DNA from: Streptomyces sp. NBC_00341
GTDB lineage: Bacteria > Actinomycetota > Actinomycetes > Streptomycetales > Streptomycetaceae
Assembly: GCF_041435055.1 (NCBI RefSeq)
Contig: NZ_CP108002.1
Coordinates: 1,922,001-1,986,000 of the forward strand
Direction of reading: 5' to 3'
DNA length: 64,000 bases
Numbering within the stretch: the stretch's first letter is position 1; every line of letters begins with the position of its first letter. Of this stretch, positions 43,009 through 47,925 are shown one piece after another. The notes beneath the pieces were generated by a model. That model worked only from the letters and a program-made list of their open reading frames with translations, made no database searches and was not told the DNA's origin. The position numbers and the translations under genes are program-made.

Positions 43009-43025
43009 ACCCCGCAGCGCGGGGT
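43009..43025. terminator. Short hairpin at the end of uvrB
   Basis: 7-bp GC-rich arms (43009-43015 and 43019-43025) with a 3-nt loop touch the uvrB stop codon. Confidence 0.5.
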
Positions 43026-45142
43026 CAGGCCAGGCCCGCCTCCCGCATCTGGCGCAACTCCTTCTTCAACTCCCCCACCTCGTCGCGCAGTCGGGCGGCC
43101 ACCTCGAACTGCAGGTCCGCGGCGGCCGCGCGCATCCGGTCGGTCATCTCCTCGATGATCCCGGCGAGCTCGGTGGCCGGGCGGTCGGTGACCACCGCCC
43201 CGTCCCCCTTGGTCTTCGCGGAACCGGCCTTGATGCCCAGCGTGGGCACGGGCGCCTTGGCACCCTTCGCCTGGCGGTAGCCGGTGCCGAGCAGCTGCTC
43301 GGTGTCGACCTCCTCGCGGGCGATGGACGCCACGATGTCGTTGATCTTCTTGCGCAGCGGCTGCGGGTCGACTCCCCGCTCGGTGTTGTAGGCGATCTGC
43401 TTCTCGCGGCGCCGGTTGGTCTCGTCGATCGCCTGCGCCATCGCCGGGGTGATCTTGTCCGCGTACATATGGACCTGCCCGGACACGTTACGAGCGGCAC
43501 GGCCGATGGTCTGGATCAGTGAAGTACCCGACCGCAGGAAGCCCTGTTTGTCGGCGTCGAGGATCGCCACGAGCGACACCTCGGGCAGGTCGAGGCCCTC
43601 ACGCAGGAGGTTGATGCCGACCAGGACGTCGTACTCGCCCGAGCGCAGTTCGCGCAGCAGCTCGATGCGGCGCAGGGTGTCGACGTCGCTGTGCAGGTAG
43701 CGGACCTGGATACCCAGCTCCAGGAAGTAGTCGGTGAGGTCCTCCGACATCTTCTTGGTGAGGGTGGTGACCAGGACCCGCTCGTCCTTCTCGGTGCGCT
43801 TGCGGATCTCGTGCACCAGGTCGTCGATCTGGCCCTCGGTGGGCTTGACGACGATCTCCGGGTCGACGAGACCGGTGGGCCGGATGATCTGCTCCACGAA
43901 GCCGTCGCCCCGGGAGAGCTCGTACTTGCCGGGGGTGGCGGAGAGGTAGACCGTCTGGTTGATCCGTCCGAGGAACTCCTCCCACTTCAGCGGGCGGTTG
44001 TCCAGCGCGGACGGCAGCCGGAAGCCGTGGTCGACGAGGGTCCGCTTGCGGGAGGCGTCGCCCTCGTACATCGCGCCGATCTGCGGCACGGTGACGTGCG
44101 ATTCGTCGAGGACGAGCAGGAAGTCCTCGGGGAAGTAGTCCAGGAGGGTGTTGGGCGCGCTGCCGGGGGTGCGGCCGTCGAAGTGCATCGAGTAGTTCTC
44201 GACACCCGAACAGGTGCCGATCTGGCGGAGCATCTCGATGTCGTACGTGGTGCGCATCCGCAGCCGCTGGGCCTCCAGCATCTTGCCCTGCTTCTCCAGC
44301 TCGGCAAGCCGCTGCTCCAGCTCCTGTTCGATGCCGCCGACGGCCTTCTCCAGGCGCTCAGGACCCGCCACGTAGTGGCTGGCGGGGAAGACGTGGAGGG
44401 ACTCGTCCTCGCTGATGACCTCGCCGGTGAGCGGGTGGAGGGTGGAGAGCGCCTCGATCTCGTCACCGAACATCTCGATGCGGACGGCGAGCTCCTCGTA
44501 GACCGGGAAGATCTCGATGGTGTCGCCCCGCACCCGGAAACTGCCCCGGGTGAACGCCAGGTCGTTGCGGCTGTACTGGATCTCGACGAAGCGGCGCAGC
44601 AGCTGGTCGCGGTCGATCTCGTCGCCCACCTTGAGCTGGACCATGCGGTCCACGTACTCCTGCGGTGTGCCGAGGCCGTAGATGCAGGAGACGGAGGCGA
44701 CCACGACGACGTCACGCCGGGTGAGCAGGGAGTTCGTCGCGGAGTGGCGCAGCCGCTCGACCTCCTCGTTGATCGAGGAGTCCTTCTCGATGTAGGTGTC
44801 CGACTGCGGGACGTACGCCTCGGGCTGGTAGTAGTCGTAGTACGAGACGAAGTACTCGACGGCGTTGTTGGGCAGGAGCTCGCGGAACTCGTTGGCGAGC
44901 TGGGCGGCGAGGGTCTTGTTCGGCGCCATCACCAGGGTGGGGCGCTGCAGCTTCTCGATCATCCAGGCGGTGGTCGCCGACTTTCCGGTGCCGGTCGCGC
45001 CGAGCAGCACGACATCCTTCTCACCTGCCCTGACACGCCGCTCCAGCTCGGCGATGGCCGTCGGCTGGTCGCCGCTGGGCTGGTAGGGACTGACGACCTC
45101 GAAAGGCGCCACCGAACGTTCGATCTTCGAAACGGGCCGCAT
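43025..45142 (-). CDS. uvrB: Excinuclease ABC subunit B
   Basis: UvrB is the helicase-like subunit that verifies damage and recruits UvrC. The 705-residue protein has Walker [16 protein letters not shown] near residue 46, the beta-hairpin [21 protein letters not shown] near residue 100, DEAD-type LVLDESHV near residue 338, helicase motif [11 protein letters not shown] near residue 540, and a C-terminal UVR motif ([26 protein letters not shown]). ATG at 45142 has no Shine-Dalgarno sequence; it is preceded by an exact RecA-independent damage promoter, giving a mRNA that starts at or near the ATG. Confidence 0.98.
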
Positions 45143-45171
45143 GCAACCACCGTACGACCCCCCACTGACAA
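45143..45171 (-). promoter_or_regulatory. RecA-independent DNA-damage promoter (RecA-NDp, PafBC type) of uvrB
   Basis: On the minus strand TTGTCAGTG (45163-45171), 8 nt, TACGGT (45149-45154), 6 nt, ATG. This is a full match to tTGTCRgtg-N8-TAnnnT, the promoter class known in actinobacteria to respond to DNA damage through the WYL-domain activator PafBC. Confidence 0.85.
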
Positions 45172-45180
45172 CGGGGCGGG

Positions 45181-46056
45181 TCAGCGGTCGTGGTGCTCCA
45201 CGGGGTTGCGCCGCTGCGAGTGGAAGGAAGCCGGGTCGGCGTGCGTGCCGAACCGGGGAACCTGGCGCTGGGCGGGGATGCCGAGGGCCCGTCCGGCAGC
45301 GGCGTCCTCCCAGTCCGGGGTGCCCATGACCACCAGTGGGTCGAACATCACGACGACCCCGGCGACCAGCAGGAAGCAGGCCGGGCCGATCAGCATGGGC
45401 ACGAGGAGGCCGGTCGGGGTGTCACCCCCGGTGGTGCCGGTGGAGGCGGCCGCGTGCAGGTGGACCCGGAGCGCCGCCATGCCCGTGTAGTGCATTCCGC
45501 TGACCGCGACGCCCATGACGACGGCGGCGCCGAGGCTGGGCAGGAAGCCGTGGATCGAGACGGCGGCCCAGAGCGCGGCGGTCGAGGCCGACACGGCGAT
45601 GACCACCGAGAGCGTCACGGTGATCGTGTCGTACTCGAACTGCCCATCAAGTCGCATCCCGGCCATGCCGAGGTAATGCATGGTGGCCACGCCGAGTCCG
45701 GTGATCGTGCCGCCCGTCACCAGCGCCATCGGGGTGGCGCCCCGGTACCCGACCAGGAAGATCCCGACACCGACCACGACGATCGCGACGGCGAGGCTGG
45801 CGAAGGTGATCGCCTTGTCGTAGCCGATCGGCGCCTCCTCGACGGAGAAACCCATCATCGCTATGAAGTGCATCGTCCAGATCCCGGAGCCTATGGAAGT
45901 CGCGCCGAGAGCCAGCCAGCCGGCCTTGAAGGAACGTTCCGTGCGCAGAGACCGGGTGGTGCAGCGCAGGCCGAGTGCCGCGCCGAGGCAGGCCATGAGG
46001 AACGCCGCGACGGGGGTCACCGCCCCATAACTGAAACCGTCGATTGTGCCCTGCAT
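45181..46056 (-). CDS. MHYT-domain integral membrane sensor
   Basis: The 291-residue protein has seven membrane helices and the MHYT motif repeated three times: [11 protein letters not shown] near residue 60, [11 protein letters not shown] near residue 130 and [11 protein letters not shown] near residue 193. MHYT domains are thought to bind copper and sense oxygen, CO or NO. Here no GGDEF, EAL or kinase domain is attached; only a 60-residue cytoplasmic tail rich in His and Arg follows, so any output must go through a partner. ATG 46056 is preceded by GAAGGA at good spacing; the frame extends two codons further to GTG 46062. Confidence 0.9.
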
Positions 46057-46292
46057 ACACACGTCCTTCGCAGAAGCCCGGGTGCGGACGACCCTAGGGC
46101 CTGTCCTGAGGCGCGAGGCCCGGCAAACAAACAGAAGAACTGCACTTTATCGACAGGGGCACCGGTCCATGACGCGGTCCCCGGCGGCCGTTCACATGGT
46201 GGCCACCCTTCGCCTCTCCCCCGTTCGGCGGCGGCTGCGACGCTCAGGCCGTCCGCAACTCCGACGCTCCGCACCCCACGCAAGGAGTCCAC

Positions 46293-47330: not shown

Positions 47331-47374
47331 CCGTACGGCCGGCCACCGACCGTTGTCAGTGGCCGGCCGTACGG
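47331..47374. repeat. 16-bp perfect inverted repeat overlapping the ogt promoter
   Basis: Arms 47331-47346 and 47359-47374 (CCGTACGGCCGGCCAC and its complement) enclose 12 nt that hold the TTGTC of the damage promoter; the right arm covers the spacer and most of the -10 box. It may be the terminator of the upstream gene, an operator, or both. Confidence 0.8.
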
Positions 47375-47382
47375 TGGGTGGC
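47353..47382 (+). promoter_or_regulatory. RecA-independent DNA-damage promoter (RecA-NDp, PafBC type) of ogt
   Basis: TTGTCAGTG (47353-47361), 8 nt, TACGGT (47370-47375), 7 nt, ATG 47383. This fully matches tTGTCRgtg-N8-TAnnnT and is nearly the same as the uvrB promoter. Confidence 0.85.
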
Positions 47383-47925
47383 ATGAACAACAACGGGGTT
47401 GTCGAGTGGACCGTCGTGGAGAGCGATATCGGTCCGCTGCTGCTGGCCGCGACCGGTGCCGGGCTGGTGAGCGTGGTCTTCCACGCGCGTCCGGCGGTAC
47501 GGGACAGGGCGCTGGACCAGTTGCGGAGCCGGCTCGGCGCGGAGCCGGTCGAAGCACCGGACTCCGCCCGGCTGGCCGAGCCGATACGCCAGTTCGCGGC
47601 GTATTTCGCGGGCACCCTGCGGGATTTCTCGCTCGATCTCGACTGGTCGCTGACGGGCGGTTTCAACCGCCAGGTGCTCCGTGAGCTGGCGGCCGGCGTG
47701 CCCTACGGCGCCGTGGCCGGTTACGGGGAGCTGGCAGACCGGGTCGGACAGCCCGGGGCGGCCCAGGCGGTCGGGGCGGCCATGGGGTCCAATCCCCTGC
47801 CGGTCGTGGTGCCCTGCCACCGGGTGGTGGAGCGCGACGGCGGGATCGGCGGCTTCGGCGGTGGTCTCGAGACGAAGCGGCAACTGCTGGCGCTGGAGGG
47901 CGTGCTGCCGCAGCCGTTGTTCTGA
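47383..47925 (+). CDS. ogt: Methylated-DNA--protein-cysteine S-methyltransferase
   Basis: Suicide repair enzyme that takes the methyl group from O6-methylguanine onto its own cysteine. The 180-residue protein has the helix-turn-helix YGAVAGYGELADRVG near residue 110 with the arginine-finger region, and the active site PVVVPCHRVVERDGGIGGF near residue 145. ATG 47383 lies 7 nt from a TACGGT -10 box without a Shine-Dalgarno sequence, so the mRNA is probably leaderless. The damage promoter shared with uvrB supports a role in damage-induced repair. Confidence 0.96.
   Translation: MNNNGVVEWTVVESDIGPLLLAATGAGLVSVVFHARPAVRDRALDQLRSRLGAEPVEAPDSARLAEPIRQFAAYFAGTLRDFSLDLDWSLTGGFNRQVLRELAAGVPYGAVAGYGELADRVGQPGAAQAVGAAMGSNPLPVVVPCHRVVERDGGIGGFGGGLETKRQLLALEGVLPQPLF

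Follow-up and report, generated by a model that had tools for sequence, protein, structure and literature searches.

A probable RecA-NDp/PafBC-class promoter directly in front of uvrB in Streptomyces sp. NBC_00341, with spacing that predicts a leaderless transcript

The uvrB gene of Streptomyces sp. NBC_00341 is very probably (about 0.85) transcribed, as leaderless mRNA, from a RecA-NDp/PafBC-class promoter that responds to DNA damage. The evidence comes from the promoter motif, its spacing, its conservation, the content of the regulon behind it and the presence of the pafBC genes. The promoter lies in a window of 64,000 nucleotides, the whole stretch of DNA that was analysed, which belongs to a 9.06-Mb genome. 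The features concerned are as follows.

43025 to 45142, minus strand: uvrB, 705 amino acids (family models)
45143 to 45148, minus strand: 6 nt (GGTTGC) from the -10 element to the ATG, whose A (45142) is the predicted transcription start (geometry)
45149 to 45154, minus strand: -10 element TACGGT, of TANNNT type (letters; no canonical -35/-10 pair nearby)
45155 to 45162, minus strand: 8-nt spacer GGGGGTCG (length 8 in 17 of 18 genus loci)
45163 to 45171, minus strand: -26 box TTGTCAGTG, a RecA-NDp/PafBC-type element (letters, exact pattern match, genus alignment)
45181 to 46062, minus strand: MHYT-domain gene directly upstream of uvrB (PF03707)
45341 to 45356, no strand given: LexA-box-like word inside the MHYT gene, -214 from uvrB, doubtful (one mismatch to the S. 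venezuelae consensus)
47353 to 47375, plus strand: second exact RecA-NDp/PafBC-type promoter, TTGTCAGTG-N8-TACGGT (pattern match)
47383 to 47925, plus strand: ogt-type methylated-DNA-protein cysteine methyltransferase (PF01035, TIGR00589)

An earlier note on this DNA had claimed a full match to the consensus of the class, 8 nt from TACGGT and 6 nt from the ATG, and the letters bear this out, with 0 mismatches to TTGTCRGTG-N8-TANNNT (the consensus for the RecA-NDp/PafBC class, tTGTCRgtg-N8-TAnnnT, was used as supplied in that note). Its naming of the downstream gene as uvrB also stands, as the product scored above cut-off with both NF003673 (1072 bits, cut-off 743) and TIGR00631 (1066 bits, cut-off 750). 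Taking the A of the ATG as the first transcribed base, the -10 element TACGGT spans -12 to -7 and the box -29 to -21. A sequence test of 44900-45500 revealed no canonical sigma-70-type -35/-10 pair. TTGTCA was considered as a -35 for uvrB and rejected, because it is merely 11 nt from the -10. The note's statement that there is no Shine-Dalgarno sequence was nearly right: a 4-nt Shine-Dalgarno-like GGTG is present at 45151-45148 (minus strand), but it overlaps the -10 and is therefore missing from any transcript beginning at the ATG.

The stop codon of the MHYT gene is 38 nt from the uvrB ATG on the same strand. The promoter thus occupies the whole gap, and read-through from the MHYT gene is possible, which could yield a leadered uvrB mRNA; only such a read-through transcript could make use of GGTG.

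The exact pattern was matched twice in the window, compared to no match in 200 first-order Markov windows. When up to two mismatches were allowed, the five matches in the window were only mildly unusual (shuffle mean 1.4, with at least five in 2 of 100 shuffles). At the second exact promoter the ATG of ogt lies 7 nt past the -10. Among loci with an ogt match and enough upstream sequence, this promoter had at most one mismatch in four of five and two mismatches in the fifth.

The uvrB promoter is widely conserved. A uvrB locus was obtained from 30 of the 31 genomes searched. Of 18 loci from the genus (including that of NBC_00341), 13 have the exact promoter, four have one mismatch and one has a 7-nt spacer, while the distance from the end of TANNNT to the start codon is 6 or 7 nt in all 18. 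The exceptional promoter (locus L055, genome G005) is a natural 7-nt spacer variant in which box, -10 and 6-nt start spacing are intact. Outside the family but within the order, all 12 uvrB loci have two mismatches or fewer and 6-7 nt to a start codon. Within the genus the sequence upstream of the box drifts while the box stays. The uvrB of NBC_00341 is 93% identical to that of S. anulatus and 88% to that of S. tendae. A composite of the promoter, 6-7 nt and ATGCGGCCCG (the start of uvrB) was found in 346 of 392 genus genomes; the exact composite is absent in 46, one of which (G005) is explained by its 7-nt spacer. Given these counts and the order-wide conservation, the motif is not absent from uvrB in related species, the finding that the earlier note held would speak against its proposal.

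The genome-wide search that had been suggested showed the motif to be enriched in NBC_00341, with 19 exact sites and, at one mismatch or fewer, 86 sites versus 5 for the reversed pattern; many of these sites precede repair genes. Shortening the spacer by one base gave 15 sites versus 38 with the pattern reversed, so that the enrichment disappears when the spacing is wrong. Exact TTGTCAGTG sites numbered 462 in 21 genus genomes, compared to 2 in the control, and each of the 21 congeneric genomes has 11-40 copies of the strict motif. Across 30 class-wide genomes TGTCRGTG sites totalled 298 (10 in the control), and 29 of the 30 genomes have at least one. At the R position A is found in 18 of the 19 exact NBC_00341 sites, whereas most other genomes of the class have G among the matches listed.

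Many of the one-mismatch sites in NBC_00341 read CANNNT for TANNNT, including L042 before a Y-family polymerase gene, and the -10 of the class may accept C at its first base. Two divergent copies, one exact and the other with one mismatch, are 25 nt apart at C1:5512203-5512225 (minus strand) and 5512251-5512273 (plus strand), which suggests a divergent promoter pair.

Likely first genes were translated behind 23 sites, namely 17 of the 19 exact sites (all except L033 and L034) and 6 of 11 one-mismatch sites that were fetched; 22 of them, including uvrB, were scanned for families (L036 was left out). Repair or replication genes make up 11 of the 22. They encode UvrB, Ogt, uracil-DNA glycosylase (ung), RuvC, RecA, the DNA polymerase III beta clamp (dnaN), a RecD2-type HHH protein, a PD-(D/E)XK nuclease and a DEAD-box helicase; the one-mismatch sites contribute a Y-family polymerase and also a RarA-like ATPase (the last below NCBIfam cut-offs). 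The recA gene (L028) is preceded by a RecA-NDp-type box, an 8-nt spacer and TANNNT. Three first genes are without an evident repair role (a transporter component, a SWIM protein and a WGR protein) and eight gave no Pfam family (L016, L023, L026, L030, L032, L039, L043 and L044). The product of L032, which starts 6 nt past the -10, has as its best solved match 5e3b, 'Macrodomain protein' (E 6e-87), which we take to be SCO6735. The starts assigned at L020 and L031, 78 and 62 nt from the -10, are unsure.

Leaderless spacing extends beyond uvrB. It was examined at 77 sites in four genomes, comprising those NBC_00341 (G000) sites whose R is an A, and sites among the matches listed for G013, G018 and G009. 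An ATG with an open frame occurs at 6-7 nt from the -10 in 22 cases and at 6-9 nt in 27 of the 77, compared to a mean of 0.7 at the other offsets from 0 to 60. Another, more scattered group of starts lies approximately 35-56 nt away, often with a Shine-Dalgarno-like word, and includes recA, ruvC, ung and dnaN; leaderless spacing is thus the commonest single geometry but not the rule. In the class-wide set (29 of 30 loci, since L186 has no site at the expected place) ATG is at 6-8 nt in 15 of 29, with 4 at all other offsets from 0 to 60. Judged from these offsets, PafBC-class promoters appear to favour leaderless spacing.

In four of four Streptomyces-type genomes the recA site (L028, L205, L215 and L249) is followed by an in-frame GTG exactly 7 nt past the -10, alongside the usual recA ATG at 43 nt, and recA of Hamadaea (L325) likewise has a GTG in frame at 7 nt. 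This geometry would allow a leaderless RecA with an N-terminal extension.

Close spacing of -10 and start is common at actinobacterial uvrB. In 39 of 44 named actinobacterial loci a candidate uvrB start follows the end of TANNNT at 6 or 7 nt (all 20 loci that have the box and 19 of the 24 that lack it), compared to 0-3 for control offset pairs from 9 to 34. L089 and L104 were left out of this count as they had too little upstream sequence. Since any in-frame ATG or GTG was accepted as a start, the per-locus count is an upper estimate, a freedom shared by the offset controls. A second rise at offset 36-37 reflects an in-frame codon 30 nt inside uvrB. Among other phyla 8 of 34 uvrB loci have TANNNT at 6-7 nt (controls 0-5).

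The earlier note had also proposed looking for pafB and pafC, and the pair is present in the NBC_00341 genome, as two adjacent genes for WYL proteins at C1:1515056-1516978. Along almost its entire length the first protein matches the M. smegmatis PafB in entry 7p5x (E 2.2e-55). Genes of the Pup-ligase family lie approximately 7 and 14 kb from pafBC; a third, partial Pup-ligase match is found at C1:1518689-1519072, between pafBC and these two full-length genes. In 45 genomes (NBC_00341 and those behind the named loci) PafC was matched in 37 and PafB in 39, with PafB but no PafC in two (G046 and G069). The box at uvrB (two mismatches or fewer, 5-8 nt) is present in 19 of 44 named-locus genomes, all of them PafC-positive; the 25 genomes without it comprise 17 PafC-positive and 8 negative (Fisher p = 0.0065, a value that ignores kinship).

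By analogy with mycobacteria, from which both the PafBC mechanism and the dependence of uvrB on it are carried over, DNA damage would expose single-stranded DNA, leading to activation of the PafBC heterodimer via its WYL domains. The HTH of PafB would engage TTGTCAGTG around -26, and the PafC HTH would contact domain 4 of the housekeeping sigma factor, replacing the missing -35. RNA polymerase would open at TACGGT and begin transcription with the first base of the uvrB start codon, and ribosomes would load on the 5'-terminal ATG of the mRNA. For NBC_00341 we infer induction of uvrB, its 5' end, its dependence on PafBC and its leaderless translation. Sigma adaptation by PafBC with single-stranded DNA as the trigger is described in the available text of PMC11804915, and the mechanism also in that of PMC8223512 and PMC6789036.

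The box itself varies. Some uvrB promoters have TGTCACAC or TGTCRTAC in place of TGTCRGTG, and TGTCRYAC-N8-TANNNT is clearly enriched in five of the 20 genomes tried. These are listed with the number of sites in the genome and in its control.

G061, an Acidimicrobiales MAG: 17 versus 0
G063, an Acidimicrobiaceae MAG: 16 versus 2
G065, a MAG titled Acidobacteria: 11 versus 1
G067, an Actinomycetota MAG: 7 versus 0
G050, Hamadaea, Micromonosporaceae: 22 versus 2

There is a slight excess in G032 (6 versus 0) and G062 (3 versus 0). Counts in the rest were at or near control, for instance in NBC_00341 (3 versus 2), G045 (4 versus 2), G048 (2 versus 1), G049 (5 versus 2), G070 (4 versus 3) and G072 (3 versus 4), and no TGTCRYAC sites were found in G066, G068, G069, G071 and G054. 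In an unbiased count of the triplets in TGTCR-N11-TANNNT, CAC accounted for 15 of 42 in G061 (GTG 3) and for 9 of 50 in G063 (TAC 7, GTG 0).

Forty stretches with variant sites were taken (16 of 17 from G061, 13 of 16 from G063, 6 of 7 from G067 and 5 of 22 from G050, the last selected visually for their resemblance). Reading frames were assigned in 39, of which 19 were family-scanned; these were chosen largely for repair-like first residues, so the share of repair genes is no estimate. Genes behind the variant box include uvrB (L289), recA (L301, L302, L317 and L325) and those for RmuC (L297, L308 and L320), an exonuclease (L319) and DnaB (L316). From their domains L292 is probably a RadA-like ATPase and L315 an SbcD-like phosphoesterase; L324 is uvrB of Hamadaea, judged by its first residues. 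The others are DUF222 (twice), an AbiEi-like protein, YjbR, a Clp protein and two without a family. Behind the variant box an open-frame ATG or GTG is found 23 times at 6-8 nt, versus three or fewer at any other offset.

PafB proteins were aligned and residue 45 (numbered on NBC_00341 PafB) lies near the conserved FERDK stretch, which we read as a putative recognition helix. All 19 G-type genomes have E, N, D, S or G there, and three T-type or unclear ones have N, F or Q. Arginine is found in 7 of 7 C-type genomes, 0 of 22 G/T-type and 4 of 10 without an assigned box, a pattern confounded by kinship. The C-type label was taken from the uvrB word in G061, G062, G065, G068 and G072 and from genome-wide sites in G063 and G067; of the five labelled from uvrB only G061 and G065 show clear genome-wide enrichment, and the uvrB word of G068 lacks TGTC.

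A wider reading, for which we see the odds as even, is that the PafBC response of Actinomycetota is largely a leaderless-mRNA regulon with an evolvable -26 box. Under it uvrB would be ancestrally leaderless, the box coming, going and changing behind a fixed -10, and a change of box would be matched at PafB residue 45. The box types proposed are TGTCRGTG in Streptomyces, mycobacteria and many others, and TGTCRYAC(CC) in some Acidimicrobiia-type genomes and Hamadaea.

The motif might be linked to damage but read in Streptomyces by another factor, either a ClpR-like regulator or an unrecognised sigma factor acting on TGTCAGTG/TANNNT. A ClpR-like regulator is said, in work by Wang et al. of 2011, to recognise the RecA-independent motif in mycobacteria, and binding data for Streptomyces PafBC were not found in the open literature searched. 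This is nevertheless unlikely, as PafC co-occurs with the box at uvrB and PafB residue 45 varies with the assigned type of box (though this is kinship-confounded), while the PafBC regulon of M. smegmatis has UvrABC and its binding motif closely resembles RecA-NDp in the available text of PMC8223512. Control of uvrB mainly by LexA and the SOS response, with the box incidental or secondary, is a weaker candidate again. The genes uvrABD are named among SOS genes in general in the available text of PMC9380542. In a scan with the published S. venezuelae consensus (tCGAAC-N4-GNNCGa) the best word, at -214, had one mismatch, and words at -15 and +19 had two; with a symmetric consensus the best word had 3 of 12 mismatches. 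The validated lexA-1 site departs as far (3 of 10 mismatches to the symmetric form). However, the -214 word falls within the coding part of the MHYT gene, words as good turn up in 11 of 218 equally long window tiles, and a word with at most one mismatch occurs in just 5 of 22 uvrB loci, at differing places. The best LexA-like word near ogt has 4 mismatches. The word 'uvrB' is absent from the available main text of the S. venezuelae LexA paper (PMC9380542), and the element conserved genus-wide is the PafBC-type promoter. Added LexA control of uvrB is possible, but is not indicated by the sequence.

That the promoter is leaderless but constitutive, with the box adding little, seems the least probable of all. 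It would fit the 19 boxless actinobacterial uvrB loci (of 24) that keep TANNNT 6-7 nt before the candidate start. Against it, the box persists across the genus although its upstream flank drifts, other copies of the box stand before repair genes in the NBC_00341 genome, and the uvrB promoter has no -35. A damage-inducible promoter of the RecA-NDp/PafBC class remains the preferred explanation for uvrB.

The open literature searched held nothing joining PafBC, DNA damage and uvrB in Streptomyces, and nothing on leaderless uvrB in Streptomyces. Nor, judged by title, did it hold box variants of the PafBC motif in Acidimicrobiia or Micromonospora. Leaderlessness is not joined to PafBC damage promoters in the available parts of PMC10936776 or PMC7790235. 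Should the leaderless bias hold up, translation of many repair proteins induced by damage would begin at a start codon at the very 5' end of the mRNA, with no Shine-Dalgarno pairing. The variant box together with PafB residue 45 would amount to a natural specificity experiment for sigma adaptation.

The RecA-NDp promoter of recA in M. tuberculosis and S. rimosus was reportedly described by Ahel in 2002 and Gamulin in 2004, works that PMC5087735 and PMC2375139 cite. It has the same box, 8-nt spacer and TANNNT as uvrB of NBC_00341, whereas the uvrB start, 6 nt past the -10, has leaderless geometry. Leaderless damage-response mRNAs are known for lexA and recX of M. tuberculosis (PMC2897130, PMC3062782); lexA is SOS-controlled, the recX promoter is constitutive, and neither case is tied to RecA-NDp in the available text. 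The SCO6735 macrodomain gene of S. coelicolor, whose expression rises 5-fold after UV (PMC5087735, 2016, in the text available; also PMC9411070), has a RecA-NDp promoter of the kind found before uvrB of NBC_00341; the gene is a different one. In M. smegmatis, as far as the available text of PMC5656591 goes, deletion of pafBC cuts uvrB mRNA by 37%; the PafBC regulon there includes UvrABC and uses a -26 element for the -35, and PafBC is also present in NBC_00341.

SIGffRid motifs TGTCAGTN14,15TnG were reported in S. coelicolor and S. avermitilis, with 67 S. coelicolor genes and uvrB among the repair genes named (PMC2375139, 2008). On the available text, the promoter class and its S. coelicolor uvrB example were thus in print in 2008, in a listing that carries neither a link to PafBC nor a statement of leader length. 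Judged from sequence comparison, what is newer than that listing is the leaderless spacing bias, the retention of a -10 at 6-7 nt from the start at 39 of 44 uvrB loci in actinobacteria, and the occurrence of TGTCRYAC with Arg 45.

According to the available text of PMC9380542 (2022), conservation of the M. smegmatis motif in S. venezuelae was not seen in a first search, and a RecA/LexA-independent response in Streptomyces is said to remain to be demonstrated. This appears to be in tension with the abundance of the strict motif in the 21 congeneric genomes searched. With so many copies in each genome, many of them before repair genes, the Streptomyces question is directly testable, with uvrB and ogt as reporters. 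The uvrB observation is correct but of a familiar kind; it is of value for its tension with what was stated in 2022, for the leaderless bias of the class and for the pairing of box and PafB as a testable lead.
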